Below, one piece after another: positions 1 through 39,485 of a stretch of 42,860 nucleotides of DNA. The stretch's first letter is position 1, and each line of letters begins with the position of its first letter. The translations under genes were made by a program, and so were the position numbers. The notes beneath the pieces are model-generated. The model saw nothing but the letters and a program-made list of their open reading frames with translations, was not told where the DNA came from and did not search any database. This DNA comes from a virus: the IMG/VR virus record IMGVR_UViG_3300002835_000380, positions 1-42,860 of that record; one strand, given 5' to 3'.

Positions 1-99
1 GGGAAGAATGGGAAGAACGGTGGGAAGAATGGGAAGAATGGTGGGAAGAATGGGGGGAAGAATGGGAAAAACGGTGGGAAAAATGGCGGGAAGAACGGA
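1..99 (-). repeat. Low-complexity (PFFP)n coding repeat
   Basis: The plus strand shows GGGAAGAA-type units about 9-12 bases long. On the minus strand they encode repeated Phe-Phe-Pro-Pro in frame with the Fn3 protein. The same Phe-Pro motif recurs in the Pro-Thr fibre gene, near 10360-10420. Confidence 0.85.
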
Positions 100-698
100 G
101 CAATAGTAGTTACGCTACCAGAAGACGCAGATGCAGCAGAATTTCCATTAGCGTTAGTTGCATAAACAGTATATGTTTGAGAAGTATTTGCTTCTTGAGA
201 AACTACCACTGATGTTGAAGCAGTTGAATTAGTTTTTCCATCTGAAGATGTCCATGTATATCCAGTAATCGCCTTACCACCATTTGCTGGGGCGGTCCAA
301 GAAACCGTATCTTGATCTACTCCCGCTGTTGCAGTTGGAGCACTTGGTGTTGCTGGAACAGTTGTTGCTGTCACAGAAGACGATGCTGATGAAGCAGCAG
401 AAGTTCCTGCGGCATTTGTTGCAGTCATTGTAAAGGTATAGGAAGTATTAGATGCTAAACCTGTTACTCTAACTGGAGATGATGCGCCAGTTCCAGTAAA
501 TCCTCCAGGGGAAGATGTAACTGTAAAAGATGTTGCTGCTGGAGAAAGCGCAGGTAATGTAAAAGATACATCAACTGCTCCATCATTAAATGCACGACCT
601 GTTCCTACATCTGTCGCACCAGTAATAGTTGGTGTTAATGGCTCCAAAAAGTCATTTGATGCTTGGGACTTTCTACCTGTCTTCTTGCCTGCTGCCAT
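1..698 (-). CDS. Fibronectin type III fibre protein with Phe-Pro tail (C-terminus beyond window)
   Basis: The gene begins at an ATG at 698 preceded by an AGGAGA ribosome binding site and reads off the left edge, so only about 232 N-terminal residues are visible. After a basic start (MAAGKKTGRKSQ) there are two Ser/Ala/Thr-rich beta-sandwich repeats of fibronectin type III character, with motifs such as SNTSYTFTMTATNAAG and DTVSWTAPANGGKAITGY. It then enters a run of PFFP units that continues to the edge. Fn3 repeats are common in phage tail fibres, where they bind surface sugars or act as spacers. It lies first in line downstream of the fibre gene at 729-2504. The Fn3 call is by eye; the PFFP tail is unusual. 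Confidence 0.75.
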   Translation of the reverse strand, partial: MAAGKKTGRKSQASNDFLEPLTPTITGATDVGTGRAFNDGAVDVSFTLPALSPAATSFTVTSSPGGFTGTGASSPVRVTGLASNTSYTFTMTATNAAGTSAASSASSSVTATTVPATPSAPTATAGVDQDTVSWTAPANGGKAITGYTWTSSDGKTNSTASTSVVVSQEANTSQTYTVYATNANGNSAASASSGSVTTIAPFFPPFFPPFFPFFPPFFPPFFPFFPPFFPFF

Positions 699-728
699 TT
701 TATCTCCTAGTTTCTATTAAATTTTGTA

Positions 729-6476: not shown

Positions 6477-7040
6477 ATGATTAAATTTATCGAAAGAAAC
6501 AAAGAGATCATTAGCACACTCAGTATATTGGCTTTAGTAGTGACTTTATCGAATGCTGCTAATGCTGAAGAAATAACAACTAAGAACAATTTAAGTACTG
6601 AACAGGCTCAGAAGACAGAAGATACCTCGAAAGAGGTTTTTTTGGTTTCTAAGGCTAAAAAATTAGAGAGTTTTGAAAATAAAACTTCTCTTACAGATAT
6701 TGAACTAAAGCAACTCCTACACCTTGTTGGTTTTAGGGGTCAAGACTTGGTTGTAGCCTGGGCTATCGCCAAGAAGGAATCTAATGGTCGCCCACTTGCA
6801 TTTAATGGCAACCATAAGACTGGAGACTCTTCTTATGGGGTCTTTCAAATTAATATGATTGATAACTTGGGTCCAGACCGTAGAACTAGGTTTGATTTGG
6901 ACTCTAATGCTGAACTATTCAATCCCGTAAAAAATGCAGAAATTGCATACTATATGTCACAAGGTGGTGACGACTGGTCTTCTTGGAAAGGCATTACTCC
7001 AAGAACTAAAGAGTGGATGAAGAAATTTCCACGTAACTAA
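6477..7040 (+). CDS. Secreted lysozyme / SLT-like transglycosylase (candidate endolysin)
   Basis: 187 residues from ATG 6477, chosen because AAGGAGG lies seven bases upstream; an upstream GTG at 6450 would lie inside the leader hairpin. Residues 1-30 form a signal peptide (KEIISTLSILALVVTLSNA then ANA|EE). The catalytic part is a lysozyme-like fold: AIAKKESNGRPLAFNGN contains the probable catalytic Glu, followed by GDSSYGVFQINM, the typical SLT/goose-lysozyme core. It would cleave peptidoglycan outside the membrane during lysis or entry. It is the only plus-strand gene in the left block and has its own promoter. No separate cell-wall-binding domain is evident. Confidence 0.8.
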   Translation: MIKFIERNKEIISTLSILALVVTLSNAANAEEITTKNNLSTEQAQKTEDTSKEVFLVSKAKKLESFENKTSLTDIELKQLLHLVGFRGQDLVVAWAIAKKESNGRPLAFNGNHKTGDSSYGVFQINMIDNLGPDRRTRFDLDSNAELFNPVKNAEIAYYMSQGGDDWSSWKGITPRTKEWMKKFPRN

Positions 7041-7984
7041 TTTATAACAATTTGTCTCAGTTCTTGATGGTTATACATCCAATGCGGTGTGTTTCCATCA
7101 AAGAACTGGACATCAACTTCTTCAAACTTATCATTTCTTCCATATATAGATTGACGATCCATTACTGGACTGTAGATTTTTGCCGTTGGGGATAGAAAAC
7201 AAGCCCACCAACTAAAACTACTGTTTGCACGAAAAACAGTTCTAGCAAAATAAATCTTTAAAAAATCTTCAAGCCAATCAAATATTTTATCTTCTTTATA
7301 AGTTGATCCTACTGGATAAGACCAGCCAAACCTTTCTGATTTTGGTCTATCCTTATGCCATTTATTTATATAATCATCAGACACCCAAATTATTTTTTCT
7401 GGATCAAATCCTCTTTGTTTAAAAGCATTTAAATACGAATTCATAGAAATTACCGAATAGCCTTGAACATTATTCTTATTAAAATCTGGATTAGAGATAT
7501 CGTCTCTTCTCAAATGAGCCAAATCATATGTTCCTTGAAGCGCTGACCAATATTTATAAGATTCAGTATTTTTTACTTCATCAGAAAACTCAAACACATC
7601 TAGCAAATGATTTTTTAACATTGGATAATAAATATCGTTTCCATAAGCACAAACGCTATCAAAATATACTGGATAATCATACTTTAAATAATTTTCTGGG
7701 CTTTGCTCTGGATTAATTAATTTAATATTTTTAAAAGAATTATCTAGTACATTTTTAATTCTGTCTGGATTATTTGCACCAGGAAAACTCTGATTAAGTT
7801 CAAACCTAACATTATCGTTTTCCAATACTCTGTGGTGTTGATTTTTAAATAGTCTGGTTCCTTCCCAATCAGACGGCAACAAAAACTCAGTTCCAGTTAC
7901 CCTAGAATATGTTGCTCCGTAGGCATATTGATGCATTCTGTTGCCAAACCTGCCATGCCAATGGGATAGGAGGATAAAACTCAT
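7037..7984 (-). CDS. GT11-like alpha-1,2-fucosyltransferase family protein
   Basis: A 315-residue glycosyltransferase with the family hallmarks: GRFGNRMHQYAYG at the N-terminus (cf. GGLGNQMFQYA), the donor-binding HxRRxD motif as HLRRDD near residue 160, and NSSFSWWACFLSP near residue 255. GT11 enzymes transfer fucose or related sugars from a GDP-sugar, and the next gene encodes a GDP-mannose 3,5-epimerase-like enzyme that could supply a GDP-hexose. The promoter is inside the end of that gene: TATAAT (7991-7996, minus) six bases before ATG 7984, predicted leaderless. The acceptor could be a phage fibre or the host envelope; this is inference. Confidence 0.82.
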   Translation of the reverse strand: MSFILLSHWHGRFGNRMHQYAYGATYSRVTGTEFLLPSDWEGTRLFKNQHHRVLENDNVRFELNQSFPGANNPDRIKNVLDNSFKNIKLINPEQSPENYLKYDYPVYFDSVCAYGNDIYYPMLKNHLLDVFEFSDEVKNTESYKYWSALQGTYDLAHLRRDDISNPDFNKNNVQGYSVISMNSYLNAFKQRGFDPEKIIWVSDDYINKWHKDRPKSERFGWSYPVGSTYKEDKIFDWLEDFLKIYFARTVFRANSSFSWWACFLSPTAKIYSPVMDRQSIYGRNDKFEEVDVQFFDGNTPHWMYNHQELRQIVIN

Positions 7985-7991
7985 GAACTAA

Positions 7992-9008
7992 TTATATCTT
8001 AGTCTTTATCCAATTATATGTTTTTGTAATACCATCTTTTAATGATATAGAATAGTCCCATTGAAGTTTTTCTCTGACTAGATCGTTATTTGAGTTTCTG
8101 CCACGAACACCAGTTGGACCATCTACATGCTTTTTACTTAAAGTCTTGCTCTCAACTGATGAGGCAATGTCAACAAGATCATTTATAGTTACCATTTCTT
8201 CGGATCCAATATTGACTGGACCAGTAAAATCAGACTTCATTAGTCTTCTTGTTGCCTCTATGCATTCGTCTATATACAGAAATGAACGAGTTTGCTCTCC
8301 ATCCCCCCAAATTTCTATAGAGTCTGTTCCAATAATAACTTTTCTACAAATTGCTGCAGGAGCCTTTTCTCTACCGCCGTTCCATGTTCCTTCTGGGCCA
8401 TAGATATTATGATATCTTGCAACTGCAACTGGAATATTGTAGTTTTTGTTAAATGCTAAGAACAGTCTCTCGCTAAATAATTTTTCCCATCCGTACTCGC
8501 TGTCAGGATTTGCTGGGTATGCATCTGATTCTTTAAGTCCAGGATTATCTGTAGACTCTTGAATATGGGAGGGATACATGCATGCAGAACTACTGTAAAA
8601 AATTTTTGTTTTGTTTACATTATTTTTTTGATTTAATCTTAGTTGTGCTCTTAATAAGTTAAGATTAATCAATGCAGAATTTTCCATTATGTTTGCATCA
8701 TTTTCACCTGTAAAAATATATCCTGCTCCGCCCATATCTGCAGCAAACTGATATATCTCATCAAAAGTATCTATAAACTTTGGTGCCAAGTCTACATAAA
8801 AATTTCCCTGATATCCTTTAAATTGAATTACTTTTTCCATATTAGAATATTCAGAAAGATCTCTAATTATAAACTCATCTGCTTTTGTTTCAGAAAATTC
8901 TGGATTTTTTATATCAACTCCACGAACCCAGTATCCTTCCGACTTAAGTCTTTTGACCATGTGGGATCCTATAAACCCCCCTGCACCAAAAACTAAAGCA
9001 GTCTTCAT
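7992..9008 (-). CDS. GDP-mannose 3,5-epimerase-like NAD-dependent SDR enzyme
   Basis: 338 residues from ATG 9008, which shares its A with the TAA of the upstream gene (TAATG coupling); a TTG at 9020 is less likely. It shows the Rossmann GAGGFIGSHM, AADMGGAGYIF, SSSACMYPS, catalytic YGWEK and RYHNIYGPEGTWNGGREKAP, the last almost diagnostic for GDP-mannose 3,5-epimerase (GME), which makes GDP-L-galactose/gulose. Other extended SDR epimerases are possible but match less well. Together with the GT11-like gene it forms a sugar activation and transfer pair set between virion fibre genes. Confidence 0.82.
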   Translation of the reverse strand: MKTALVFGAGGFIGSHMVKRLKSEGYWVRGVDIKNPEFSETKADEFIIRDLSEYSNMEKVIQFKGYQGNFYVDLAPKFIDTFDEIYQFAADMGGAGYIFTGENDANIMENSALINLNLLRAQLRLNQKNNVNKTKIFYSSSACMYPSHIQESTDNPGLKESDAYPANPDSEYGWEKLFSERLFLAFNKNYNIPVAVARYHNIYGPEGTWNGGREKAPAAICRKVIIGTDSIEIWGDGEQTRSFLYIDECIEATRRLMKSDFTGPVNIGSEEMVTINDLVDIASSVESKTLSKKHVDGPTGVRGRNSNNDLVREKLQWDYSISLKDGITKTYNWIKTKI

Positions 9009-9619
9009 TATCTTAGCCAACTCACAACAGAATACCTTGTTCCTTCTTGTACTGGAAGAACGGAGTGATTATATACATAAGTTGATGGGAAAATAACCAT
9101 TTGGTTTGCCTTTGGTTTTAGAGTAACATTAAATCTTGGGAAAAACAGTTCTCCTCCAGAGTAATTGTCATTTATGTAATAAAGGGTAGATATTCTTCTA
9201 TGATATTCTGGATGATCGTCTATATGATTAACAAATTTTTGACCAACTCCGTATTTTAAAATACCATAAACATCATGCCATGTTGTAAATATTCCATAAT
9301 TGTTTTTATAATCATTTTCTAATGGACCAAAACTTTCTAAAAAAATATTAGACAAACTATTTTGAAATGCATCTATTAGATTTGTATGATCATTTACTAT
9401 GGTATCAGAATAACGAATTCCAATCTTCATTGTATCTCTTTTGGTTTGATCTGTTTGTTCCACATCACCATTTTCTTTTCTTCCAGAATAAACACCTGCC
9501 AAACTCCATTGAATATTTGCAGACTTCATTCCTTCCTCTATATCATCAACTAGCGTTTCTGAGTCTTTTATAACATTATCATAAATCATAATTCCTGGAG
9601 CAATTTCATTTTTTATCAT
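9008..9619 (-). CDS. Prolyl-4-hydroxylase-like 2OG-Fe(II) oxygenase
   Basis: A 203-residue double-stranded beta-helix enzyme. The Fe ligands are visible: HxD in FVNHIDDHPEYH, a distal His in YNHSVLP, and the 2-oxoglutarate-binding Arg in GTRYSVVSW. The P4H-type segment TLYYINDNYSGGELFFP lies between them. It probably hydroxylates a protein side chain. It is coupled by TAATG to the epimerase downstream and follows a small zinc protein upstream. Next to it is a fibre gene with hundreds of Pro and Thr residues, a plausible substrate by analogy with hydroxyproline-rich glycoproteins (inference). Confidence 0.82.
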   Translation of the reverse strand: MIKNEIAPGIMIYDNVIKDSETLVDDIEEGMKSANIQWSLAGVYSGRKENGDVEQTDQTKRDTMKIGIRYSDTIVNDHTNLIDAFQNSLSNIFLESFGPLENDYKNNYGIFTTWHDVYGILKYGVGQKFVNHIDDHPEYHRRISTLYYINDNYSGGELFFPRFNVTLKPKANQMVIFPSTYVYNHSVLPVQEGTRYSVVSWLR

Positions 9620-9620
9620 A

Positions 9621-9857
9621 TTACCACTTTCCTAATGGACAGGTTGCTGCCTGTAATTTAGTCTTAACAGCCATAAAGCAGCCACACTTTTTGCACTGTT
9701 TTGTTAATTTGATCAATTCTGGACATGACTGACAAATAGAGTATCTATTTACGGCTATTTCAGAAGAGGCCCACTCAGTTGTTGGATTAACCAAATCCCA
9801 AGGTCTGGTTTCTCCTAAATTTTCTTTATATTTTTGCCAGGCAGATTTTTCATTCAT
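9621..9857 (-). CDS. Small zinc-ribbon-like protein
   Basis: A 78-residue protein. After a Trp-rich N-terminal half (WQKYKENLGETRPWDLVNPT) it has a Cys cluster CQSCPEL ... CKKCGCFM ... TCPLGKW, which looks like a zinc-binding ribbon. Proteins of this shape occur near glycan and 2OG-oxygenase genes in several phages, but the role is unknown. It is followed one base later by the oxygenase ATG. Confidence 0.65.
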   Translation of the reverse strand: MNEKSAWQKYKENLGETRPWDLVNPTTEWASSEIAVNRYSICQSCPELIKLTKQCKKCGCFMAVKTKLQAATCPLGKW

Positions 9858-9864
9858 GAAAAAA

Positions 9865-10071
9865 TCACCCTTCTATAAAATTAGTTCCATCCCATTTCCA
9901 ACCTAAATTAACATTCAGATCAGACGGAATTTCAATAAATGTTGGTTGAGAACTAAGTCCAGCGATTATTCTTTCTCCTGCTTCGCCATCTTCTCCTTGA
10001 TACTCGCTATCAATTACAAATATTGTAAAAATATCTCCATCAACAATTCCTGCAAACTTTTTAATTGACAT
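9865..10071 (-). CDS. Hypothetical small protein
   Basis: A 68-residue acidic protein (MSIKKFAGIVDGDIFTIFVI) ending in GWKWDGTNFIEG, a short Trp-rich tail similar to those of phage structural or fibre-assembly proteins. The start has a strong AGGGAGGT ribosome binding site and a TATACT further upstream, unlike its leaderless neighbours. Function not recognised. Confidence 0.6.
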   Translation of the reverse strand: MSIKKFAGIVDGDIFTIFVIDSEYQGEDGEAGERIIAGLSSQPTFIEIPSDLNVNLGWKWDGTNFIEG

Positions 10072-10113
10072 AACTACCTCCCTTTAAATAAAGTATACCA
10101 TAATCAAAGCAAA

Positions 10114-12630
10114 TTAGTAAGCGCAACTAGATCCAGTCCAGAATCCACCACTATTTACACAGGATGTACAGTTACTGCATGCCACCGATGTTGCTGTATA
10201 TTCTGGGCAGGCAGCACATTGATTTGCTGGTGTCGGAGTTGGGCTAGGTGTAGGCGTTGGAGTTGGGGTAGGCGTTGGCGTTGGGGTTGGAGTTGGAGTT
10301 GGGGTAGGAGTTGGAGTTGGGGTAGGAGTAGGTGTTGGGGTTGGTGATGGCGTTGGTGTAAAAGTTGGGAAGAACGGGAAGGACGGTGGGAAGAACGGGA
10401 AGGACGGGAAGAATGGTGGTGCAGGTGTAGGTGTCGGAGTTGTCCATGGTGTTGTCGAGCATTCTCCAAATGTTGTTGAATAATAATATCCGCAAGCCTG
10501 GCATTGAGACTGGTTATAGGCCCATGCATTGTCTGGGCTACATGTTGGTGTCGGAGTCGGTGTCGGAGTTGGTGTCGGAGTTGGTGTTGGTGTTGGTGTT
10601 GGTGTTGGTGTTGGTGTTGGGGTACAAGGAACACTCTGGAAGTATTCTCCACAACTTCCATTTGCATAAACACCAATTCTACTTCCATTAGAACATGGAG
10701 AATCCCAAGCAATAAATGTTCCAGAAGGTGGGCACGTTGAAGTTGGAGTAGGTGTTGGAGTTGGTGTAGGGGTAGGTGTAGGGGTAGGTGTTGGAGTTGG
10801 TGTTGTCCATGGTATTGTTGAACATTCACCAAATGTTGTTGAGTAGTAATATCCGCAAGCCTGGCATTGAGACTGGTTATATAAATATGCATTGTCTGGT
10901 ACGCAACTAGAGGTTGGTGTTGGGGTAGGTGTTGGGGTAGGTGTTGAGCATCCAAGGCCTATATAAAACTTAATAGAACTTGTTGATCCATCAGAACACT
11001 TATACCATGCTTCTTGATAATTACTACATCCTGAGCAAGATCCATCTGGACAGGATCCACTATAAACTCCACCTAGAGTTTGTCCATATTGAGATCCACA
11101 GGAAACTGTTGTAGTTGGAGTAGGAGTTGTTGGGGTTGGTGTTGGTGTTGGAGTTGTCGGTGTTGGAGTTGGGGTAGATCCACAATTTGCTGCCGATACT
11201 GAAGGCGTGTTTGAATTTCCTGGAGCACAGTTCCAACCACTTCCAACCTCACCTAAAGCGGTGTGGTACTGTAGTGCTTGTGAGCAAGTTCTTGTGTCGT
11301 CAAAATTAGGTCCCATAACTGTTCCTGGATCATATCCTGCTCCAACATTAGCACAATATGTATACCAAACTCCAGAAGTTCCTGGAGTAACACATGGAGT
11401 TGTTCCAGCACCGCCACTACCTCCACAAGAACTTACGTTAGTTGCAAGACAGTTTCCAAATCCAAGGAATGTTCCAGTCCCTGGTGCTGCTTCAACACAA
11501 ACTTGGTATGAGCCATCGGAGCATGTTTTTCTTGTTCCTTGGAAAATTCCTTCATAAGAGTCCTCACCATTACATGTTGGAATTGTTACTGTATATGCTT
11601 CACATGGTCCACAGGTGACTGTTTCTGTTGGTGTAGGAGTTGTTGGGGTTGGAGTTGGTGTTGTTGGGGTTGGAGTAGGAGTTGTTGGGGTTGGTGTTGT
11701 TGGGGTTGGAGTAGGAGTTGTTGGGGTTGGAGTAGGCGTTGGGGTTGGAGTAGGCGTTGGGGTTGGTGTTGGTGTTGGTGTTGGAGTTGGAGTAGGCGTT
11801 GGTGTTGGTGTTGGAGTTGGAGTTGGAGTTGTAGGCGTTGCCACACCTTCATAGATATCTCCGTATAAAACCCACGAGTCGGTATCTACTTTTATTAATG
11901 TTGCTTTGCCGTATTCTGCATCAATCCATTTTTGATTATTTTTACTATTTACCATTACTCCGCTTGCTGGGCTAAATAATGTTCTTCCATAATTAAACTG
12001 TATAAAATTATATTGATATCCTATAGGAATTTGTACAGAGGTATTGTTTGGAACAGTTACAGTCACTGTTACTGGTGGATTTGGGTCACCAGGAATTGGA
12101 GATATAACTGGTCCTGAATATGAAAGCAATATAGTTTTTGCAACATCACCAAGTTCTAATGTAAAATTATTATCTTTTGTTATTACTGTATTTATATTTG
12201 CAATTCTTGGCTCAAGATCAAACTGTTCATCAACAGAATTCCAATCAATACCATTTCCTGCAAGGGCTGGGTATCCTCCAGTAGCACCACTTATTGCATT
12301 AGTTATTGCTGTATTAACAAATGATTGCGTTGCTAAATCTGCTGTATTTGATATACCGTGGACATCTGTGGTATCTGAGTTGTGTGCTGAAATTGCTGCA
12401 TTTCTATTTACTATTTCTGCAGCATCTGCATCTACAAGATTTTGAAGGTGTTTTGCAATTGACGGGGTAACAAGATTATTGGGGTTTGTATTTGCCCCAT
12501 CATAAACATATGATCCATAGTGATATAGTCTTAAGGCTGCCTGAATGTCGGCTGCGTCTGAAAGACCTGGAATTTTAGTATTGAAGAGTCCACTACCGTT
12601 GACGGTATTATCGATATTCTCTTCTGCCAC
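10114..12630 (-). CDS. Giant Pro-Thr-repeat tail fibre with Cys-rich modules
   Basis: An 838-residue protein. Residues 1-260 repeat the architecture of the fibre at 729-2504: an [20 protein letters not shown] stalk unit, [14 protein letters not shown], and a beta domain ending [17 protein letters not shown]. From about residue 265 it changes to long (PT)n runs separated by Cys-rich modules. Two modules are near-identical ([20 protein letters not shown]), and a [17 protein letters not shown] stretch echoes the protein at 1-698. The C-terminus is Cys-rich. It starts at GTG 12630 after GAGAGG. It looks like a fibre fused to a long, stiff, possibly glycosylated and disulfide-bearing adhesin. Confidence 0.82.
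10210..11840 (-). repeat. (Pro-Thr)n coding repeats and duplicated Cys modules
   Basis: Hexanucleotide-type repeats (GGTGTT/GGAGTT/GGGGTA variants on the plus strand) encode Pro-Thr in blocks at about 10210-10350, 10545-10625, 10740-10805, 10917-10947, 11115-11175 and 11625-11835. The block near 10430-10540 is duplicated near 10800-10905. Synonymous variation among the repeats argues for selection on the protein rather than mere slippage. Confidence 0.85.
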
Positions 12631-12649: not shown

Positions 12650-13246
12650 TTATACCACTGTAATAAACAAATGAACACGCTTAGGACCAGCCATTGGCTG
12701 CCAGGCGTTATCAATATATTCTACACCCTTTATTTCAAGTGGTAATGCCAAAAACCCCTGGCTGGTAATTAAATCTTTTATTATAAGATTTGTAGCCAAA
12801 GGCCCAGAGGAATCTGATGACGATATGGAATACTGAACATTAAAAACCTGAGATGTTGCAGATGTGATACCAGAAGAGCCGTATATCTCTGCTACATTTA
12901 TTGGGGGTACTGTAAGTGTTCCATTAACAGCAGTAACATCTTTAATAGATGAATAATAGTTTGTTTTTAAACTAACAAGTGGTGTCCACTGTAATGAACC
13001 TCCACTAGAAACTTTTTGAAAAACTGTTTTATACGTTGTAGATGCTGGCTGATAATCTATAGCAATATCTAGGGCCTGGGTATCTTGAACAATTGTAGAA
13101 GCAACATTTGCATCTCTGGGGTCTCCAAGTACTCCAATAATTATGCTACCACGATCTCCTTGTGGGCCAATATCTAGGTCTAAACTTATGCTTTCTGGAC
13201 CACCAAAAATTGTTAAATCGTCATTAGATAAAAGTATATCTGCCAT
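12650..13246 (-). CDS. Minor virion protein, hypothetical
   Basis: A 198-residue protein with one collagen-like fleck (LDIGPQGDRGS) near residue 25, then a Ser/Val-rich beta-type body. It is coupled by TAATG to the LtfC-like gene upstream. Its position between LtfC-like and fibre genes suggests a tail-tip or baseplate component. No known catalytic motif is visible. Confidence 0.6.
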   Translation of the reverse strand: MADILLSNDDLTIFGGPESISLDLDIGPQGDRGSIIIGVLGDPRDANVASTIVQDTQALDIAIDYQPASTTYKTVFQKVSSGGSLQWTPLVSLKTNYYSSIKDVTAVNGTLTVPPINVAEIYGSSGITSATSQVFNVQYSISSSDSSGPLATNLIIKDLITSQGFLALPLEIKGVEYIDNAWQPMAGPKRVHLFITVV

Positions 13247-13735: not shown

Positions 13736-14455
13736 TTATACCACGCTGACGTAGATAGAATTCATAATTACGGATGAGTCGTAGTCGGTTCTAATTTGAG
13801 GCACCGCTCCAGAATTCCACATAGCGTCATCCTCTATAAAGAAGTGCTGCGTGACATACATATTATAGACATACTGATATTTTAGGGATGCCACGAACTG
13901 CGAAATTTCGGTGGTAGATTTAGGGAAAAACGTCCTCATCCAAACCTCTGTATTGTTAGACTCAGTAGTGAGTTCAAAGTTATAGGTTACGAATACCTGT
14001 GATCCAACCTTAAGGCCATGGAAGTTAAGCATTCTTTGTTCTGCATTCCAGAGGCTGGTACATCCTTCTGGCAGGTATTTTTCATTTGTATTGCTACCCT
14101 TGGAATCTACCCAAACCTTTACCCATCCATCATCTCCATAATTGACACCAAGGTTTATAGGTTTTCTATTTAAGTTAAAGTAAGAAGCCCATCCTGCTTG
14201 TTGTCCAGAAGAAGACAAGGAACTTAGTCCGTCTTTTCCAGGAGTTCCTCTTTCTCCTTTTGGTCCTGGTAACCCATCTTTACCTGCAGGGCCTTGCGGT
14301 CCAGGCATACCAGCAGGTCCAACTGGACCCATAGGACCAGGGACAGGAACATAATTAATTAATACATCGGTATTTGTTGTCTGTGTTTCTACAACCTGCG
14401 CTGCGTAACTTGATTTTTTGCTTGTGGGAAAGTCCATGGATTTAGAAACTGGCAT
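13736..14455 (-). CDS. Collagen-like virion protein, copy 1
   Basis: A 239-residue protein with about 13 Gly-X-Y triplets at residues 39-77 ([19 protein letters not shown] then [18 protein letters not shown]), so it probably trimerises as a collagen helix. A C-terminal beta-rich head of about 150 residues follows. The X-Y positions are rich in Pro, as in hydroxylatable collagens. The -10 hexamer GATAAT is six bases before the ATG, so the transcript is predicted leaderless. Likely a fibre or spike; the receptor is unknown. Confidence 0.75.
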
Positions 14456-14916: not shown

Positions 14917-15197
14917 TAGTTCTGACTCTCTAGACCAGTCTGAATTATTGCTAGATTCATTGATGTTGAGCCTATAGCATACAACGCATCAAAACTTGGA
15001 AGTTCAAAAGAGATTGAGTGGTTTGGCATAATCCTAAAACCATAATTTGTTGAAGAAAGATTTTCATTACCTCCAACATAAATATATCCTGTATCATTTA
15101 CGTTTTGTAGAGTTATATCCATACCACCATGCTTACCGTTTGGAGTAAGTCTTACTGGTGTTACACTTGTTAATGCTACGATAGAATGTTGTGCCAT
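14916..15197 (-). CDS. Small virion-surface protein
   Basis: A 93-residue protein (SVTPVRLTPNGKHGGMDITL ... PSFDALYAIGSTSMNLAIIQ) of the small beta-barrel type often seen next to phage tail fibre genes. TAATG overlaps at both ends place it in a single coupled operon with 15197-16051 and 14473-14916. No catalytic residues are visible. Confidence 0.62.
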   Translation of the reverse strand: MAQHSIVALTSVTPVRLTPNGKHGGMDITLQNVNDTGYIYVGGNENLSSTNYGFRIMPNHSISFELPSFDALYAIGSTSMNLAIIQTGLESQN

Positions 15198-16051
15198 TAT
15201 GATGCTGTCCTATATGTTCCAGAAATTCTTAACCTACTTGCTCCTAGTCCAGTTTGTATATTTGCTGGTTGTGTAAAATCTTTTGGATAAACAGAAGTAA
15301 CTGCTCTAAGTTCTCCTGGTGAATAGCCAGCATATTGAGATTGAGAAACAGTGTGAAGATATACGTAAGTATTGCCACCATATTGCTCAAGTTGTCCAAA
15401 TACTATATTTTGTCCACCATCATTAGCAGTTCTTTCAGCAACGTCTTCTGCAAGTGAAGAGTCATGTATCATACCAGTAAAAGAAAGATTTGTAGATGAA
15501 GAATTATGCATACTTCCAGAAGAATGAACTGGGAATGGAAGTTTAAATTGCCAGTGTGGCCACAAAATAGTGCCATTATTGTCTATTGGTGTTCCCCAAT
15601 CTGAAACATGTCCCAAATTAACACTTAAGTCAAAATATACCAACTCACCAATTTTGTAGTAATCAGCAAGCACATCGTATGTGCTGGTTGTTAAAGAACT
15701 TAGTTCAAAAAAATCATGACCCCAACTTCCTGAAGTTGGAGTTATTTCGCTTGAAGATCCTTCTGCGTCAGCACCCTTTGCTGCAATTAAATCAAATTTT
15801 GTAGTATCAGTTGGAAGTGTTCCTACAGTTGTAGTTGCTTTTGTATAATATAGTTGTCCTTGATAAGTTACTAAATCTCCAACTGCATAGGAAGCGTTTG
15901 ATTGCCATGCACCGTTATAGTGCCATAGGGCATCTGCACCTGCTGGTCCAGTTGCACCGATTGGTCCCTGTGGTCCTTGTGCGCCAGTTGCACCAGCGTC
16001 TCCTTTTTGTCCTTCTGCGCCTGGCATAGGAACAATCTTAATAACTGCCAT
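15197..16051 (-). CDS. Collagen-like fibre with carbohydrate-binding-like module, copy 2
   Basis: A 284-residue protein. Residues 8-36 are Gly-X-Y triplets (GAEGQKGDAGATGAQGPQG). Residues about 40-90 (HYNGAWQSNASYAVGDLVTY then QGQLYYTKATTTVGTLPTDT) look like the CBM5/12-type chitin-binding module common in phage fibres. The remainder is the head domain shared with 14473-14916. It is coupled by TAATG to the LtfC-like gene upstream. Likely a trimeric glycan-binding fibre. Confidence 0.75.
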   Translation of the reverse strand: MAVIKIVPMPGAEGQKGDAGATGAQGPQGPIGATGPAGADALWHYNGAWQSNASYAVGDLVTYQGQLYYTKATTTVGTLPTDTTKFDLIAAKGADAEGSSSEITPTSGSWGHDFFELSSLTTSTYDVLADYYKIGELVYFDLSVNLGHVSDWGTPIDNNGTILWPHWQFKLPFPVHSSGSMHNSSSTNLSFTGMIHDSSLAEDVAERTANDGGQNIVFGQLEQYGGNTYVYLHTVSQSQYAGYSPGELRAVTSVYPKDFTQPANIQTGLGASRLRISGTYRTAS

Positions 16052-16446
16052 TATAGTGTACCCCCTGGTGTAACGTCACCTAAAACTTGTATTGTGCCTA
16101 TAACTGGAGTCCAAACAATATCTTCAATTTCTTCTGGAATAATTACCTGCAAATCAAAAGGTAGTTGAGCCACGACTGAAGAATATTTTGATCCCCAATT
16201 TTTTGTAACAGAAGGATAAGCAGTAATGTCGACAAATCCTTCACCAGGTTCACAATCTAAGGCATCTAGGACATTTCCAGATTGATCATAAGCGGTTGCT
16301 CTAAAAATCCATCCAGTTGTATCATAAAAATCTATTTCGTTAGACTCGTAGAATTCCACACGAAGGGTTCCTGTATCTCCTCTAACAACGCTCCACTGCA
16401 TAGTGACAGGATCTGCACCAAAAGCAAGGGTATTGTGAATAGGCAT
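16051..16446 (-). CDS. LtfC-like tail beta-sandwich protein, copy 3
   Basis: 131 residues from ATG 16446. This start is chosen because TATAAT (16453-16458, minus) lies exactly six bases upstream, with TTGGTA 17 bases before that; the frame stays open to 16572 but the extension is hydrophobic and unlike its paralogues. The core WSVVRGDTGTLRVEF ... IGTIQVLGDVT pairs it with 5399-5788. It heads the operon of collagen-like and head-domain genes. Confidence 0.72.
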   Translation of the reverse strand: MPIHNTLAFGADPVTMQWSVVRGDTGTLRVEFYESNEIDFYDTTGWIFRATAYDQSGNVLDALDCEPGEGFVDITAYPSVTKNWGSKYSSVVAQLPFDLQVIIPEEIEDIVWTPVIGTIQVLGDVTPGGTL

Positions 16447-16697
16447 ACTGCGATTATACCATAAAAATTGACTAATACCAAGGCTGGTGGGTATGAGACA
16501 AACCAAGGTATTAGCCAACAATAAAATTATACCATAAAGGACAAAACGGACATCTAGATAAAAGTTTACCAAATTGTTACAATACCAAATGTCCGATTTG
16601 TCATGTTATGTCTTTTATGCCAGGATTGGGATGGTGTATACTTTAATATATATAAAGAAAAAGAATATCTTTATAGTTTTAAAAACTATCTTATATA
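16447..16697. other. Intergenic spacer with regulatory motif and hairpin
   Basis: No gene is seen. It contains the minus-strand promoter of the LtfC-like copy 3, one copy of the TGTCCGATTTGT motif (16590-16601) that recurs at the hubs between 21 and 29 kb, and a 7-bp hairpin ATAGTTT/AAACTAT (16673-16689) just beyond the GT32-like gene's stop. That hairpin could terminate or protect the transcript. The remainder is very AT-rich. Confidence 0.55.
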
Positions 16698-17369
16698 TTA
16701 TATATAGTATATAGGGAAATTATTATTTTCGCAAAGAGTTTTATAGTTTATTATCTTACCATTAAAACTAACATGCCTATTTATATCAAAAGACGTTTTA
16801 TGCACTTCTGAGTGAGAAAAATATTTATTATTAAAATATATAAGATTTTCATTGTCTTGTGCTATTTTTGAAAATGTATAGTTTTCTGGAAAACCGAAAC
16901 CAAGTTTTGGAACATCTTCTATTTTTATATCCTTAAACTGTAAAATCAAAGAGTCTATTATTGACTTTATTATTTTACTATTTTTAATTGCTCCAAAATT
17001 TGAATTATTAATTCCAGAGTGCTGAAATCCTTTCGAAGAACATATAAGTTCTTCTCCTTTGTAGCCTTTGCCTATTGAGTACTCTATTGTCTCTAAGCAT
17101 ATAGAATCCATATCAGCGTAGAATCCTCCGTGTGTGTATATAGCAATTAATCTCCAGATATCTGATTTATGAATATTATCCAATTCTATGTAGCAACTGT
17201 ATAAAAAATCATTATATTTTTTTACAGTTTCGCATCTTTCTTCAGCGTCAACATAACTGTGTTCCCAGCCAGGATTTAGGTTTTTCCATGTACCTATTAT
17301 ATTTTTTTGAAATGCTGGCAAATCGTTATATTTTTTTTCGTGAGTTTGCCAAATAATTTTTGGTATCAT
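16698..17369 (-). CDS. GT32-like (Gly_transf_sug, OCH1-type) glycosyltransferase
   Basis: 223 residues from ATG 17369, five bases after the stop of the upstream gene. Family signatures are IPKIIWQTHE at the N-terminus, SDIWRLIAIYTHGGFYADMD with the metal-binding DxD (ADMD), and an FGF-containing acceptor region. GT32 enzymes transfer mannose or galactose from a nucleotide sugar. It could add to the phage glycan system at 7-9.6 kb or alter host surface sugars. The context is the end of the virion block. Confidence 0.82.
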   Translation of the reverse strand: MIPKIIWQTHEKKYNDLPAFQKNIIGTWKNLNPGWEHSYVDAEERCETVKKYNDFLYSCYIELDNIHKSDIWRLIAIYTHGGFYADMDSICLETIEYSIGKGYKGEELICSSKGFQHSGINNSNFGAIKNSKIIKSIIDSLILQFKDIKIEDVPKLGFGFPENYTFSKIAQDNENLIYFNNKYFSHSEVHKTSFDINRHVSFNGKIINYKTLCENNNFPIYYI

Positions 17370-17373
17370 TATG

Positions 17374-17637
17374 CTACTTAGACTTAGAAATATGCTCAAT
17401 TAAAATCTTGTACATTTCGTCAAGTTTCTTTTCTTGACGTTCTCTAGATCTTGCAGATTCTTCTTTTTGTTCGTTCAAACCATTTTCAAGTCGTGAAACT
17501 GCATCTCTAAGGCTGGATCCCGAATTCGGCTTAAGTTCGACTAGATAATGTTTTACTAGCCACTTGATTGCTAGGGCAACTGATGATACAATTGTTAGGA
17601 TGGCGACAATTAATGCTGCCCAATCTTGAATTGTCAT
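17374..17637 (-). CDS. Small membrane protein, candidate holin
   Basis: 87 residues from ATG 17637; the longer reading frame upstream lacks a start signal and overlaps the divergent gene. One clear membrane helix (IVAILTIVSSVALAIKWLV) is followed by a charged coiled coil (SRERQEKKLDEMYKILIEHI). The shape fits class III-like phage holins and other phage membrane proteins; holin is only a suggestion, as the lysozyme gene is 10 kb away. TATAAT lies nine bases before the ATG, giving a leader of about three bases. Confidence 0.55.
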   Translation of the reverse strand: MTIQDWAALIVAILTIVSSVALAIKWLVKHYLVELKPNSGSSLRDAVSRLENGLNEQKEESARSRERQEKKLDEMYKILIEHISKSK

Positions 17638-17671: not shown

Positions 17672-18442
17672 ATGAAAACGGACATACTTAGCACACTAGA
17701 GCATTCTCGAAATCTAATAATATCCCCAGATATGGATGGCTTTATGTCCGCAAAATTATTGGAGCGTTTTAACGGTTCGCAAATAGTCGGTTCGTATGAC
17801 AAGAATCTTTTATGTCTCGCCGACGGGATAGATCCAGAAGATTGCCTGTTCCTGGACTGCGACATGAATAGATATAACTTTGTTTCGCTCGGAAATCACA
17901 TGCGCTTACTAGAAGATAGTATGTCATATAAGTCTTTCAATCCGAATGTACACTTCGGCGTAACGACATATAGCGACAAGTTTCCTTTCGCAACCGCTTT
18001 TTTGATTTCGTTCGCAACAGAGGTTCAAACCTCCAATACAGACCTAACACGCATGGCTTTTGCTGACTCAACTCTCAAGAACATGGAGAAGTACAGCAAC
18101 AACATGCGAAACTGGTCTGATAGGATGGATCACCCTGCAGTTCGGTACATAATGGACAATTCGGACATTGCAAGAGCAAATGATGCACAGGCAAGGTTTG
18201 ACTATGTTGATCAATCTTTCACCTCAAAACGGTATGGCAAGGAACGATATCTGAATACCCTAAATAGGGCCCTAGAAGCGCAGGGGATGAAGTTTCAAAC
18301 CTTAACTAGGGGTAACAAATACCTTTGCGACAAAGTGGGCCTAAACACCCTTACAAGGTATAATAAGGATATAATTTCATATGCGGAAATATTCACAGGA
18401 GAATATAGCGTAACATATGACCAGGAGATAGAGTGGAGATAA
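17672..18442 (+). CDS. DHH-like phosphoesterase (tentative)
   Basis: A 256-residue protein. The N-terminus NLIISPDMDGFMSAKLLERF resembles the first DHH-family motif (DxDG followed by a helix), and FLDCDMNR could be the second metal-binding strand. The DHH motif itself is not clear (the nearest is MDHP near residue 150). Phage proteins of this type are often called DHH phosphoesterases, with nuclease or cyclic-nucleotide phosphodiesterase activity. It starts 34 bp from the divergent gene and overlaps the methyltransferase downstream by 10 bases. Confidence 0.5.
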   Translation: MKTDILSTLEHSRNLIISPDMDGFMSAKLLERFNGSQIVGSYDKNLLCLADGIDPEDCLFLDCDMNRYNFVSLGNHMRLLEDSMSYKSFNPNVHFGVTTYSDKFPFATAFLISFATEVQTSNTDLTRMAFADSTLKNMEKYSNNMRNWSDRMDHPAVRYIMDNSDIARANDAQARFDYVDQSFTSKRYGKERYLNTLNRALEAQGMKFQTLTRGNKYLCDKVGLNTLTRYNKDIISYAEIFTGEYSVTYDQEIEWR

Positions 18443-19116
18443 AGTTTTATTGTCAGGACGCCAGAAAACCTTTTTTGGAGCCAGATAGCGTAGATTTGTT
18501 TTTGACACACCCACCTTTTTTAAATAGACTAGTGGCTGAGTATGGTGGAGATTTGTCTAGTCAAATACAAAATTCTGATACCGTCGAAAATTTTGCCAAA
18601 TCGATTTCTGATTTTGTCGGCAATATGGAAACTGCTTTGAAGGATAGTGGGGCGATACTTTTAATCTTGCCAAACACCCGTACCTTTTTTCATATAGTTA
18701 AATTTATAATTCAAAATACAAACTTGGTGATTAATCGTGACATCATTTGGAATTTTGAACAAAGTGAGTTTATAAATGAATTATCTGGAAACGAAATAAA
18801 TCATATTTTGTATATGACTAAGAACAAAGATGTTAGCCAACCGCTCAAAAACCTTAAAAGCCTTGTTATAGATCAGGACTGGACTACTTTTGATAATTTT
18901 GACTCTTTGCCCGAAAAAATGATAGAAGAACTTATCTTGGTATTTTCCAAAGAGGGCGATGTCGTTGTAGATCCTATGGGAGGAACTGGCACTGTGGCTG
19001 CTGTATCTTTAAAAAATAACAGAAAGGCAATATACAACGACGTTTCGCCTTTACAGGTTGATTTGGCAAAAAAGAGACTTTATGATACAATTGGATATAA
19101 AGAAATACTAGACTAG
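18433..19116 (+). CDS. Beta-class DNA methyltransferase (orphan)
   Basis: A 227-residue SAM-dependent methyltransferase with the circularly permuted order of the beta class. Motif IV comes first as LTHPPFL (normally D/S-PP-Y/W/F) and the SAM-binding motif I last as VVDPMGGTGTVAAV, followed by YNDVSPLQVDLAKKRL. It would methylate adenine N6 or cytosine N4. The THPP variant is unusual, so the specificity cannot be inferred. No restriction partner is next to it. It uses GTG 18433, overlapping the DHH-like gene. A role in anti-restriction or DNA marking is plausible. Confidence 0.72.
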   Translation: MEIKFYCQDARKPFLEPDSVDLFLTHPPFLNRLVAEYGGDLSSQIQNSDTVENFAKSISDFVGNMETALKDSGAILLILPNTRTFFHIVKFIIQNTNLVINRDIIWNFEQSEFINELSGNEINHILYMTKNKDVSQPLKNLKSLVIDQDWTTFDNFDSLPEKMIEELILVFSKEGDVVVDPMGGTGTVAAVSLKNNRKAIYNDVSPLQVDLAKKRLYDTIGYKEILD

Positions 19117-19671: not shown

Positions 19672-19858
19672 TTTTGCAACTACAATCCTGACAGCAGGTT
19701 TCTGAAAATATTTTTGCAGCCAAGTTTGGATATTCTGGTCTTCCTAAATCTTCCCAAAATTTTTCTCTGCCCATAGCATCTGTTTCTGGAATTGGTTTTG
19801 ACTCTAGCGATAAGTTGTCATCCCATGCATTTTCTAAATTTTCTAAAAACCCCATCAT
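19664..19858 (-). CDS. Small Cys-tail protein in sulfotransferase operon
   Basis: A 64-residue protein (MMGFLENLENAWDDNLSLES) ending in ETCCQDCSCKNG, a four-Cys tail that could bind metal. It overlaps the sulfotransferase-like gene upstream in an ATGA arrangement. Unrecognised family. Confidence 0.6.
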   Translation of the reverse strand: MMGFLENLENAWDDNLSLESKPIPETDAMGREKFWEDLGRPEYPNLAAKIFSETCCQDCSCKNG

Positions 19859-20484
19859 CTTGATTCCTCTTTATAGTATCTTTCATATAGTTTGTCTATT
19901 TTTGATTGTATGCTATCTAATTCATTTTTATAATTAGATAGAAACATCTGCTTTATATCCTCATGTTCTTTTGCCAAAGGACGAGGAAAGTTGCTTAGAT
20001 ATGTATTTCTTGATCCATAATGTTGATCACAAACATCTAATATTTCTTCCGCAGTAAGTTTTTGCTTAATCGAATATTGAGGATATTTTTTTACTATTGT
20101 CTCAACTACCCTTAGTGGGTTTTTTGTAAATTCATGAAATGGTGCAATGAACAATTCTTCGTGCTTAACCAGGTAATCTATATACTCTGTGTATCTTTCA
20201 ATAAGTTCTTTTGGGTCCCCCGTTCTTTCGTGCTTTCTTCCCATAATCTTATCTTGTCTTGGAAGGTTATTTGCCCATTGGTAATCTCTATATAGTTTTG
20301 CAGAAATTATGGAAGGCAGAACGTCTCTAACTGGAATAATATATATAGAATCTTTTTCTCTTTCTTCAAGAGCAGAGACAAGGTGATATTTTTCAGCAAC
20401 TGCATCAGACTCAGTAGTTAGGCCTATGGCAAATGCAAGGAATGTGTTTCCTGATCTTTCTAGCCCATCTATATGTATTGTCAT
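19855..20484 (-). CDS. Sulfotransferase-like P-loop protein
   Basis: A 209-residue protein. The N-terminus IDGLERSGNTFLAFAIG is the PAPS 5'-phosphosulfate loop typical of sulfotransferases (RSGTTxL-like), and YIIPVRDVLPSIISAKLYRD matches the 3'-phosphate-binding region (RDPRD...S). It would transfer sulfate from PAPS to a sugar or protein. It may belong with the glycosyltransferases in this window as a surface-modifying enzyme. It heads a three-gene overlapping operon. Confidence 0.72.
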   Translation of the reverse strand: MTIHIDGLERSGNTFLAFAIGLTTESDAVAEKYHLVSALEEREKDSIYIIPVRDVLPSIISAKLYRDYQWANNLPRQDKIMGRKHERTGDPKELIERYTEYIDYLVKHEELFIAPFHEFTKNPLRVVETIVKKYPQYSIKQKLTAEEILDVCDQHYGSRNTYLSNFPRPLAKEHEDIKQMFLSNYKNELDSIQSKIDKLYERYYKEESR

Positions 20485-34478: not shown

Positions 34479-34625
34479 ATGGATCAAGAAATGCTAGACA
34501 AGATAGCCAAGATCATATCTCCCTATCTTAAGACAAAGCACAAAGAAAAAGAGTCTCACGACTTGGCAAAACGAATATTTGAGGAGTTGAAAGAAAATTA
34601 TGACAACATTAGAAGTTTTCAATGA
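34479..34625 (+). CDS. Small helical protein (48 aa)
   Basis: A 48-residue charged helical protein (MDQEMLDKIAKIISPYLKTK) with TATAAT ten bases upstream. It overlaps the following oxygenase gene by 26 bases, so it is probably co-expressed with it. Function unknown. Confidence 0.55.
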   Translation: MDQEMLDKIAKIISPYLKTKHKEKESHDLAKRIFEELKENYDNIRSFQ

Positions 34626-35154
34626 ATCTCCATACAAACTTGTAAAAAACTATTTTAAGATAAATACAGATTGGGAGACAGCGCTTACTCTTTTGTATAA
34701 AAATTCTGACAAATCTCAGCATAGTCCTGGCGTTCTGTGGTTTAAGATTAAAAACCGTAAAATATTTAAAGAAATACCAGACCTAAAAACTTTTTGTGAA
34801 AATATAAATAAAGATTCTAACTCAGAGTTTTTTGAAAATTGTTCGTTCAATGACGATTGGTATTCAGGATATTGTGATTGCTCTGGTTTATGGCATCTAG
34901 ATGGACCTGTTTTATCTTTAGACTATCAAGGCATGCAATCTCACAAAGATGTATTCGATACAGCATATATTCAAATTTTGGGAAATTCTTTTTGGACACT
35001 TGGAGGAGAAATAGAGGTAACACTAAACCCAGGAGATCTTCTATATGTATCTAAAAAAATAACTCACGCAGTAAAAGGCGAAGGACCAAGATTTGGTGCG
35101 CTAATTGTTGCCCCCAGATATAAGGGCAGTACAAACCTCAAAAACTCCATGTGA
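34600..35154 (+). CDS. JmjC/cupin-like 2OG-Fe(II) oxygenase
   Basis: A 184-residue protein. GLWHLDGPVLSLDYQG carries an HxD pair like the JmjC/cupin hydroxylases, and LNPGDLLYVSKKITHAVKG supplies the distal His. N-terminal Trp-rich motifs (GVLWFKIKNRK) pack around the core in such folds. The likely substrate is a protein side chain or small molecule. Its 3' end overlaps the convergent Cys protein gene by 54 bases. Confidence 0.65.
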   Translation: MTTLEVFNESPYKLVKNYFKINTDWETALTLLYKNSDKSQHSPGVLWFKIKNRKIFKEIPDLKTFCENINKDSNSEFFENCSFNDDWYSGYCDCSGLWHLDGPVLSLDYQGMQSHKDVFDTAYIQILGNSFWTLGGEIEVTLNPGDLLYVSKKITHAVKGEGPRFGALIVAPRYKGSTNLKNSM

Positions 35155-35433
35155 CACAAAATGACCGCAAGGGCACGGCTCTGTTTTGCATGTGCAATCT
35201 TCTGGTTTAGGCAAATACTGTTTGTCGTTAGCAGTTTCAATAACATTGCAAGGCTTATTTGATTGATGTGCAACATATTCACCGCATGGACAAAACCCTA
35301 TTTTACCCCATTGGCCTGTATGACCACCACCACCAACCTGAACTACCTGACCATCATCACCAACATTGGCACTTCCAGAACATGTTCTAATATCTGTGCT
35401 ATATTGCTGATTGGGGTGCTTATTTCGTTTCAT
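35101..35433 (-). CDS. Double CPCGxxVxH zinc protein, leaderless
   Basis: 110 residues from ATG 35433, set by TAGACT six bases upstream; ATG 35439 would lie inside the -10 spacing. Two repeats, CPCGEYVAHQSNKPC and CPCGHFVSHGVFEVC, each give a C-x-C-x4-H-x6-C knuckle, so two zinc sites are likely. A Gly-rich linker (VVQVGGGGHTGQWG) lies before them. Function unknown. Divergent from the oxygenase at 35481. Confidence 0.6.
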   Translation of the reverse strand: MKRNKHPNQQYSTDIRTCSGSANVGDDGQVVQVGGGGHTGQWGKIGFCPCGEYVAHQSNKPCNVIETANDKQYLPKPEDCTCKTEPCPCGHFVSHGVFEVCTALISGGNN

Positions 35434-35480
35434 AATCATAGTCTACCATACAGACCAAATGATGGTATAATTAAATCAAC

Positions 35481-36603: not shown

Positions 36604-36606
36604 GCC

Positions 36607-36921: not shown

Positions 36922-36948
36922 GTCTTTATTATACCCCGTCGAAAATGA

Positions 36949-37578: not shown

Positions 37579-37610
37579 TTATCTATTGTATCATAGGGTA
37601 TAATTAATAT

Positions 37611-37706
37611 ATGAATGAACAAAAAATAAAACAAAGCGTTAGGGCTTTAACAGTCCTATTTGGAATATTTATTGCCGTAACCATAATTGCAGCCATATTT
37701 GCTTGA
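37611..37706 (+). CDS. Single-pass membrane peptide (31 aa), leaderless
   Basis: A 31-residue peptide with a short basic start and one membrane helix (ALTVLFGIFIAVTIIAAIFA). TATAAT (37599-37604) is exactly six bases before the ATG. Its end overlaps the -35 of the next gene. Confidence 0.6.
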   Translation: MNEQKIKQSVRALTVLFGIFIAVTIIAAIFA

Positions 37707-37731: not shown

Positions 37732-37737
37732 AGTAGT

Positions 37738-38284: not shown

Positions 38285-38303
38285 AACATGATATAATCTA
38301 GAT

Positions 38304-39479: not shown

Positions 39480-39485
39480 TAAAAT

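Follow-up and report, generated by a model that had tools for sequence, protein, structure and literature searches.

Introduction

Plants and algae make their hydroxyproline-rich glycoproteins, the arabinogalactan proteins (AGPs) and extensins, in the eukaryotic secretory pathway, and among viruses Mimivirus encodes L230, a collagen lysyl hydroxylase-glucosyltransferase. AGPs and extensins carry X-Pro repeats in which X is a small residue, and are modified by prolyl 4-hydroxylases (P4H) and then by glycosyltransferases (PMC7960765). The Skp1 pathway of Dictyostelium similarly comprises prolyl 4-hydroxylation in the cytoplasm by PhyA, after which Gnt1 and later glycosyltransferases build a glycan on the hydroxyproline (PMC3515798). 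Among bacteriophages, mycobacteriophages have virions whose capsid and tail tube subunits are glycosylated (Freeman 2023, as cited in PMC12619734), and cyanophage S-SCSM1 carries GDP-mannose 3,5-epimerase, NodZ- and O-FucT-like genes, which its authors assign to the cell wall (PMC9602691). According to a 2012 paper on collagens carried by phages, neither bacteria nor viruses have the prolyl hydroxylases that collagen hydroxylation requires (PMC3368898). The open-access titles and passages listed contain no description of hydroxylated or hydroxyproline-glycosylated phage fibres, the nearest statement being that phage 2-oxoglutarate (2OG) proteins resemble human EGLN3 according to Phold (PMC12774648). 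Here we describe a window of 42,860 bases from a freshwater phage, a linear IMG/VR virus record (IMGVR_UViG_3300002835_000380) that is possibly a fragment, in which a Pro-Thr fibre gene lies beside genes for a prolyl-hydroxylase-like oxygenase, a GDP-mannose 3,5-epimerase and a GDP-fucosyltransferase-like glycosyltransferase. On balance, and at little better than even odds, we favour the reading that the fibre undergoes prolyl hydroxylation followed by glycosylation.

Results

The tail-fibre-like genes of the window form a minus-strand run extending from 16 kb to 7 kb, which ends in the fibre and enzyme genes. Its core begins with a conserved gene at 12650-13246, recognised by alignment and an IMG/VR scan and used below as an anchor, followed by the fibre (10114-12630), a small open reading frame (ORF; 9865-10071) and a Cys-rich, Zn-ribbon-like protein resembling DUF6171 below the Pfam cut-off (9621-9857). 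Next come the 2OG-Fe(II) oxygenase (9008-9619, family OG1), the epimerase (7992-9008) and the glycosyltransferase (7037-7984). Spacing read from the sequence is one base between the DUF6171-like and oxygenase genes, a one-base overlap (TAATG) between oxygenase and epimerase, and 7 bases between epimerase and glycosyltransferase; co-translation from the DUF6171-like gene onward is therefore likely. The first-pass annotation of this DNA had described the three enzymes as coupled or adjacent and next to the fibre, and all four indeed lie in this one tightly packed run.

The proposed substrate is a protein of 838 residues, with a conserved N-terminal part and, after it, (PT)n runs between which lie short stretches containing Cys. 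The pure P/T runs number six, each 11-71 residues long (187 in total), in agreement with the very long Pro-Thr runs noted at first pass, and the protein holds 97 TP dipeptides. Codon usage in these runs is mixed (Pro: CCA 60, CCT 21, CCG 5; Thr: ACA 43, ACT 31, ACC 20, ACG 7), so they are not a plain DNA microsatellite. We infer the label of fibre from the tail-fibre-like genes around it. PHROGs gave four matches, three to families of unknown function and one to a family labelled polysaccharide deacetylase (E 0.0043).

The oxygenase matches PF13640 (2OG-Fe(II) oxygenase; E 2.6e-18 in Pfam), as do 20 of 20 members of its family, and a PDB search with a profile of 20 relatives found prolyl 4-hydroxylases of bacteria at E ~1e-10. 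Its AlphaFold2 model (mean pLDDT 92) was aligned by VIA with 3gze, an algal P4H with (Ser-Pro)5, at Z 18.6 (root mean square deviation 2.5 Å, 173 residues aligned), tied with 6f0w (Z 18.5) and 4iw3 (Z 18.4). Foldseek placed the Dictyostelium PHD 6t8m first, with a Pseudomonas P4H with EF-Tu and the algal P4H with (Ser-Pro)5 in the top five. The Chlorella virus enzyme vCPH (5c5t) was also among the structural matches, and other 2OG enzymes came close behind in VIA (PKHD-type 3dkq at Z 17.2, PiuC and OGFOD1 at about 16). Across the 20 family members H132 and D134 are invariant, H185 is present in 19, and R195 in 18 with Lys in the other two; 19 of 20 thus have a complete HxD...H iron triad, accompanied by the basic residue that binds 2OG. 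The fold is closest to that of the P4H/PHD type, and the enzyme models as a prolyl hydroxylase, in agreement with its first-pass label, although a shared fold is no proof of substrate. No close cellular source was seen, since the best match in cellular genomes is 31% identical (best 80 of 119 confirmed). One OG1 relative, at L040:6929-7528, has Ser in place of the distal iron-binding His and Lys in place of the Arg; it adjoins a Thr-rich, Pro-poorer fibre and is possibly a decaying oxygenase. PHROG 2954 and 3531, labelled ferrochelatase, match HxD...H 2OG-type proteins of these phages, and that label looks wrong.

Related loci were collected by scanning IMG/VR with the oxygenase (19 loci), the glycosyltransferase (45), the epimerase (best 80 of 599) and a Pro-Thr codon pattern (at least 120). 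A further scan with the anchor gene directly upstream of the fibre (best 80 of 209) avoids selecting on enzymes or Pro content. At 95% anchor identity its loci fall into 40 groups, with at least 5.5 kb downstream in 34 and at least 4.5 kb in 37; 6 and 3 groups, respectively, were dropped as too short, as were 3 of 58 wider groups (below 4.5 kb) and 15 of 76 epimerase-selected loci (below 9 kb). Each distinct state of a group was counted once, a single mixed group (L260, L261, L262, L273, L327) contributing two. Entries were called Pro-rich when some 40-residue window held at least 11 prolines, a threshold fixed after looking at the data.

Amongst the 34 longer anchor groups, a 2OG-type gene (OG1, or a second family, OG2) lay downstream in 31 of 33 Pro-rich entries and in one of the two Pro-poor entries; with at least 4.5 kb, 35 of 37 groups had one. 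The median distance from the most Pro-rich ORF to its start was 281 bp, and 33 of 35 groups had it within 702 bp. For loci reached through the glycosyltransferase, epimerase or anchor, and so chosen neither on 2OG genes nor on Pro, a 2OG gene was present in 46/48 Pro-rich vs 3/8 Pro-poor entries (Fisher 2.8e-4), and Pro thresholds of 9-13 gave P values of 1e-4 to 1.3e-3 (≥4.5 kb) or 8e-4 to 8e-3 (≥5.5 kb). Loci reached through the epimerase alone carried, among the matches listed, a matching 2OG gene in 16/17 Pro-rich cases vs 3/44 others (raw Fisher 8e-11); after deduplication at 95% epimerase identity this became 9/10 vs 3/40 (P 8e-7), and at 90%, 3/4 vs 3/34 (P 0.009). An initial contingency of 47/49 vs 3/8 took in loci fetched by the oxygenase or the Pro-Thr pattern and is not used as main evidence. 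The arrangement is no peculiarity of this window: it is found repeatedly among the aquatic phage loci sampled.

Sugar genes were more variable. OG1 was present in 26 and OG2 in 19 of the 34 anchor groups, and the DUF6171-like gene in all 34, compared with 12 for the epimerase, 3 for the window-type glycosyltransferase, 9 for an O-FucT-like glycosyltransferase, 3 for further glycosyltransferase-like genes and 14 for an N-acetylglucosamine (GlcNAc)-type PF11397 enzyme. Loci without the epimerase keep 2OG genes with other glycosyltransferases (GlcNAc-type PF11397, GT61 and, weakly, GT8). In 13 groups with a 2OG gene no glycosyltransferase was recognised by our seeds; six were sampled in Pfam, giving GT61 above cut-off in L259 and L264, GT8 (L306) and a mannosyltransferase (L310) below cut-off, and no glycosyltransferase family among the ORFs submitted for L276 and L326. 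The link between 2OG genes and the fibre is stronger than that with sugar genes. The DUF6171-like protein may serve the modification machinery as an adaptor. Three architectures were observed in passing: in L270 (+1850 after the anchor) a DUF6171-like domain is fused to a PF11397 GlcNAc-transferase-like domain; L264:13145-14767, downstream of OG1, encodes a single protein of 541 residues that combines a GT61 domain with a C-terminal region weakly matching cupin; and in L020, L297 and L299 one Pro-rich fibre is followed by two OG1 genes.

A matched pair of loci offers the contrast that the hypothesis predicts, albeit in a single instance. The anchor proteins of L261 and L262 are 96.6% identical and their fibre N-termini 64.8% identical over 250 residues. 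In L262 the fibre (706 residues, 131 Pro, 87 Thr) is Pro-rich, with PTPVA repeats, and OG2, an O-FucT-like gene and the epimerase lie downstream of it. That of L261, 706 residues in open frame with 44 Pro and 157 Thr, is Thr/Ala-rich with TTAAPATT-type repeats; no 2OG gene was found in 7.5 kb, and a GlcNAc-type PF11397 gene is present instead. The switch of fibre repeats between the two thus goes with a switch of the downstream sugar and 2OG genes, a modular exchange of fibre and enzymes.

Repeat types across the groups include PT, PTPVA, PVT, PVTPA, TPPS and APAPV, with FFPP in some. Proline is the element common to all: the repeats and sugar genes vary, and the Pro-rich fibre and oxygenase stay. 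Thr, Ala, Val and Ser make up ~83% of the residues on each side of Pro (2983 prolines, 38 groups), Thr being the most frequent, so that these are X-Pro repeats with small X, as in hydroxyproline-rich glycoproteins. The site consensus reported for tobacco P4H likewise begins [AVSTG]-P-[AVSTG] (PMC7960765). In L079 (the same contig as L284) the repeats are of the form APAPVAPAPV, and Ser and Thr together make up 8% of the Pro-rich stretch. Downstream lie OG1, OG2, a cupin-like gene, an O-FucT-like glycosyltransferase, the epimerase and another glycosyltransferase-like gene, the cupin and glycosyltransferase labels being assigned by eye from resemblance to genes of L276 and L059. Because these repeats almost lack Thr and Ser, a glycan there would need hydroxyproline, which is the plausible acceptor if the L079 fibre is glycosylated in its repeats.

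A second pairing of this kind occurs in L024, where a further 2OG gene (16123-16839) begins 87 bases beyond the gene for an FFP-repeat protein (15145-16035). Since L024 is a near relative of the window phage, with a 97% identical glycosyltransferase, one phage lineage has two pairs of Pro-rich protein and 2OG gene. At its left edge the window itself holds an FFP-repeat, Pro-rich protein of the L024 kind (1-713, minus strand), cut by the end of the record.

The epimerase assignment made at first pass proved sound. The protein aligns with Arabidopsis 2c59 at E 2e-89 over query residues 10-342, essentially its full length, and the first match outside GDP-mannose 3,5-epimerases follows at E 1.5e-24. 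Its motifs SSACMYP, YGWEK and GGREKAP align with SSACIYP, YGLEK and GGREKAP of 2c59, the catalytic Cys, Tyr/Lys and Lys motifs. We took its start as the ATG at 9008, overlapping the oxygenase stop, in place of the TTG at 9020 in the ORF list. The expected product is GDP-L-galactose/L-gulose. It is matched in 133 phage records, 84 of them from Synechococcus phages, with 38 of the 133 at 60-80% identity.

The adjacent enzyme is a glycosyltransferase (PHROG 2644, E 3.5e-9), and only its placement in GT11 had to be given up: it matches no Pfam family at E≤1 and not PF01531 (GT11) at E≤10, 7 of 24 family members match PF01531 weakly (best E 0.0011), and the resemblance is a loose one. PDB searches with the single sequence and with a profile returned nothing, and neither this gene nor the anchor gene matched any record of the phage collection. 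The AlphaFold2 model (pLDDT 88.6) instead places it in the GDP-fucosyltransferase-like GT-B superfamily. VIA gave AtFUT1 (Z 13.4), FUT8 (11.6), POFUT2 (10.9) and NodZ (10.6), the top 43 rows holding GDP-fucose enzymes only, protein O-fucosyltransferases included; Foldseek gave NodZ (E 1.4e-6, TM ~0.5), and POFUT1/2 were also matched in structure comparison. As GDP-L-galactose is GDP-L-fucose with a 6-hydroxyl, the epimerase and the fucosyltransferase-like fold would form a coherent L-galactosylation pair, with GDP-L-galactose as the predicted donor.

Two further genes had been proposed to extend the glycan. Upstream of the fibre gene run, 16698-17399 (minus strand) is a real PF04488 glycosyltransferase (DXD sugar-binding region, E 1.7e-12), in line with the GT32-like label, and no test ties it to the fibre; 19855-20484, described as sulfotransferase-like, matched no sulfotransferase family in Pfam, PHROGs or NCBIfam, which leaves that part of the proposal without family support. 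Elsewhere, 18433-19116 encodes an N6/N4 DNA methylase-like protein (PF01555, E 4.3e-19), and 34600-42683 holds a cluster of cupin/JmjC- and 2OG-like genes (34600, 35481, 36049, 36949, 38393; PHROG 2954-like at 39834 and 41730), away from the structural genes. GP88 (26433) is 57% identical to mycobacteriophage proteins, and a lysozyme-like gene (6450) matches phages of Streptomyces (5 records, including the best), Gordonia (3), Prochlorococcus (17) and Xanthomonas (1). The host is probably an actinobacterium.

Discussion

Taken together, these data suggest that the product of the cassette is a fibre of the hydroxyproline-glycoprotein kind, made within the cytoplasm of the host. In this scheme the oxygenase would hydroxylate Pro in the X-Pro repeats of the fibre, where X is usually Thr, Ala, Val or Ser; the epimerase would convert host GDP-mannose to GDP-L-galactose, and the fucosyltransferase-like enzyme would attach the L-sugar to the fibre, with hydroxyproline the most likely acceptor and adjacent Thr a possible one. 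Because tail proteins are assembled in the cytoplasm, the phage would have to bring its own enzymes for such fibres. The glycan would be the variable part, facing host or defence, given that relatives swap sugar enzymes but keep the Pro-rich fibre and oxygenase. The first-pass proposal that the phage modifies its own fibre thereby retains its core, carried by the prolyl-hydroxylase structural match, the association of 2OG genes with X-Pro fibres, the L261/L262 contrast and the L079 repeats, and sheds its collagen, GT11 and sulfotransferase parts.

A wider reading, which we put forward tentatively and hold to be somewhat less probable than the hydroxylation and glycosylation of this one fibre, is that extensin- or AGP-like fibres with O-glycosylated hydroxyproline are built by aquatic phages of a widespread group whose hosts are probably actinobacteria. 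In it, an almost invariable hydroxylation core of X-Pro fibre, DUF6171-like companion and either one or two 2OG enzymes would be combined with interchangeable sugar cassettes (epimerase with fucosyltransferase-like enzyme, GlcNAc-type PF11397, GT61 or GT8-like), and where the fibre has become Thr/Ala-rich, as in L261, the hydroxylase would be lost and the GlcNAc-type transferase would stay.

Several observations weigh against hydroxylation and glycosylation of the fibre. What the data show directly is the order of the genes, their families and folds, the conserved active site and the association across phages; substrate, modification, sugar, linkage and purpose are deduced from these. The tobacco P4H consensus accommodates (PT)n at its first positions but excludes Thr at its last (PMC7960765). 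OG2 matched no Pfam family and no PDB sequence, and its case as a 2OG enzyme, built on an HxD...H motif and similarity to phage 2OG proteins, is weaker than that of OG1. The contingency within anchor groups alone is not significant (P 0.06-0.24 by threshold and length filter), Pro-poor entries being too few; the Pro threshold was set post hoc, and phylogeny was controlled only by deduplication and one matched pair, such that phylogenetic dependence remains. Two Pro-rich loci (L270, L281) have no detected 2OG gene, and three with Pro-poorer repeats (L031, L040, L302) carry one, although the L040 enzyme lacks the distal His, and TP is still present within the Thr-rich repeats of L031 and L040. 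Only 9 of 120 listed Pro-Thr pattern loci had a matching 2OG gene anywhere in the fetched stretch, so PT repeats generally need no 2OG enzyme. Finally, the right arm holds further 2OG-like genes (35481 and 36949 above the Pfam cut-off, 36049 and 38393 below) without a Pro-rich neighbour, the maximum beyond 30 kb being 7 prolines in 40, and 2OG genes of these phages therefore have other roles too.

The alternative that survives best, although we consider it unlikely, is that two separate modifications are at work: the oxygenase would hydroxylate X-Pro repeats for stiffness or stability, and the epimerase and glycosyltransferase would decorate Thr/Ser of the fibre or of another virion protein, with hydroxyproline not the acceptor. 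This would account for the persistence of 2OG genes alongside different glycosyltransferases and without the epimerase, for Thr as the commonest neighbour of Pro, and for L261, whose Pro-poor fibre is paired with a PF11397-type enzyme and no 2OG gene. POFUT-like folds, matched by our glycosyltransferase model, transfer to Ser/Thr. The L079 locus argues the other way, as its repeats nearly lack Ser and Thr, yet 2OG, epimerase and glycosyltransferase-like genes are kept.

We regard as improbable that the epimerase and glycosyltransferase change host surface glycans, for instance against superinfection, with the oxygenase and fibre as chance neighbours or a separate matter. The cell-wall reading of the same kind of epimerase and of fucosyltransferases in S-SCSM1 (PMC9602691) supports it, as does the 60-80% identity of the epimerase to those of 38 of the 133 matching phage records. 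The genes are nevertheless packed into the tail-fibre run, sugar genes are swapped at the same place across phages, and the resemblance of GP88 to mycobacteriophage genes makes likely an actinobacterial host without lipopolysaccharide.

Hydroxylation of collagen-like proteins rather than the Pro-Thr fibre is less probable still. The first-pass annotation had pointed to two such proteins nearby: that at 13736-14455 (minus strand) passes PF01391, whilst that at 15197-16051 (minus strand) falls below the PF01391 cut-off and passes CBM_5_12. Both lie within the same gene run, and the Chlorella virus enzyme vCPH, whose PDB title suggests action on collagen, is among the structural matches. Of 42 testable groups, however, 41 have collagen-like ORFs upstream, among them all 3 that lack a 2OG gene. 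As a feature tracking the oxygenase they were therefore rejected, and the suggested role of collagens as co-substrates found no support.

It is very improbable that the Pro-rich repeats are ordinary flexible spacers and the adjoining oxygenase one more auxiliary 2OG gene; the four PF13640-like right-arm genes (two below the Pfam cut-off) and the 111 of 120 listed pattern loci without a matching 2OG gene are what such a reading would expect, and the position of the oxygenase, its association with Pro-rich fibres and the second pair of FFP-repeat protein and 2OG gene are not. Hypermodification of DNA, with a base as the substrate of the oxygenase and then of the glycosyltransferase, as in TET/JBP-type phages, is the least probable reading despite weak similarity to Tet_JBP (the window protein at E 0.072; 1 of 20 members at E 0.00067) and the methylase gene at 18433, since the nearest structures are prolyl hydroxylases, the genes lie in the tail run and PF13640 fits 20 of 20 members.

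If hydroxylation and glycosylation of the fibre is correct, phages own a protein modification pathway of the plant, algal, amoebal and animal kind and use it on the surface of their virions. Some of the numerous 2OG oxygenases of aquatic phages that lack an explanation (PHROG 61 and relatives) would thereby acquire a function. There would also be a reason why Pro-rich fibres adjoin sugar genes, and a source of compact cytoplasmic prolyl hydroxylases and L-sugar transferases.

The locus shares features with each of the described systems. A Dictyostelium PHD was the top Foldseek match of the oxygenase and, as in the Skp1 pathway, related phage loci carry GlcNAc-type PF11397 enzymes, the family (GT60) to which Gnt1 belongs; unlike Skp1, where one regulatory Pro of a signalling protein is modified, the candidate substrate here is a virus structural protein with long X-Pro repeats, and the window has an epimerase and a fucosyltransferase-like enzyme. 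AGPs and extensins share the small-X X-Pro repeats, and the algal P4H with (Ser-Pro)5 gave the highest, albeit tied, VIA score, but the phage protein is made in the bacterial cytoplasm, and L-galactose is predicted in place of arabinose or arabinogalactan. The vCPH of Chlorella virus PBCV-1 is likewise a virus-encoded prolyl hydroxylase of the same fold, in a eukaryotic virus, and Mimivirus L230 provides virus-encoded hydroxylation and then glycosylation of a repeat protein, although on collagen Lys and by one bifunctional protein. The S-SCSM1 type differs from the window in that epimerase-selected loci without a Pro-rich ORF have a matching 2OG gene in only 3 of 44 cases among the matches listed, and the passage on glycosylated mycobacteriophage virions has no hydroxylation step (PMC12619734). 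Should the wider, tentative reading hold, viruses of prokaryotes would have in these fibres a counterpart of both the Skp1 pathway and the cell-wall glycoproteins of plants.

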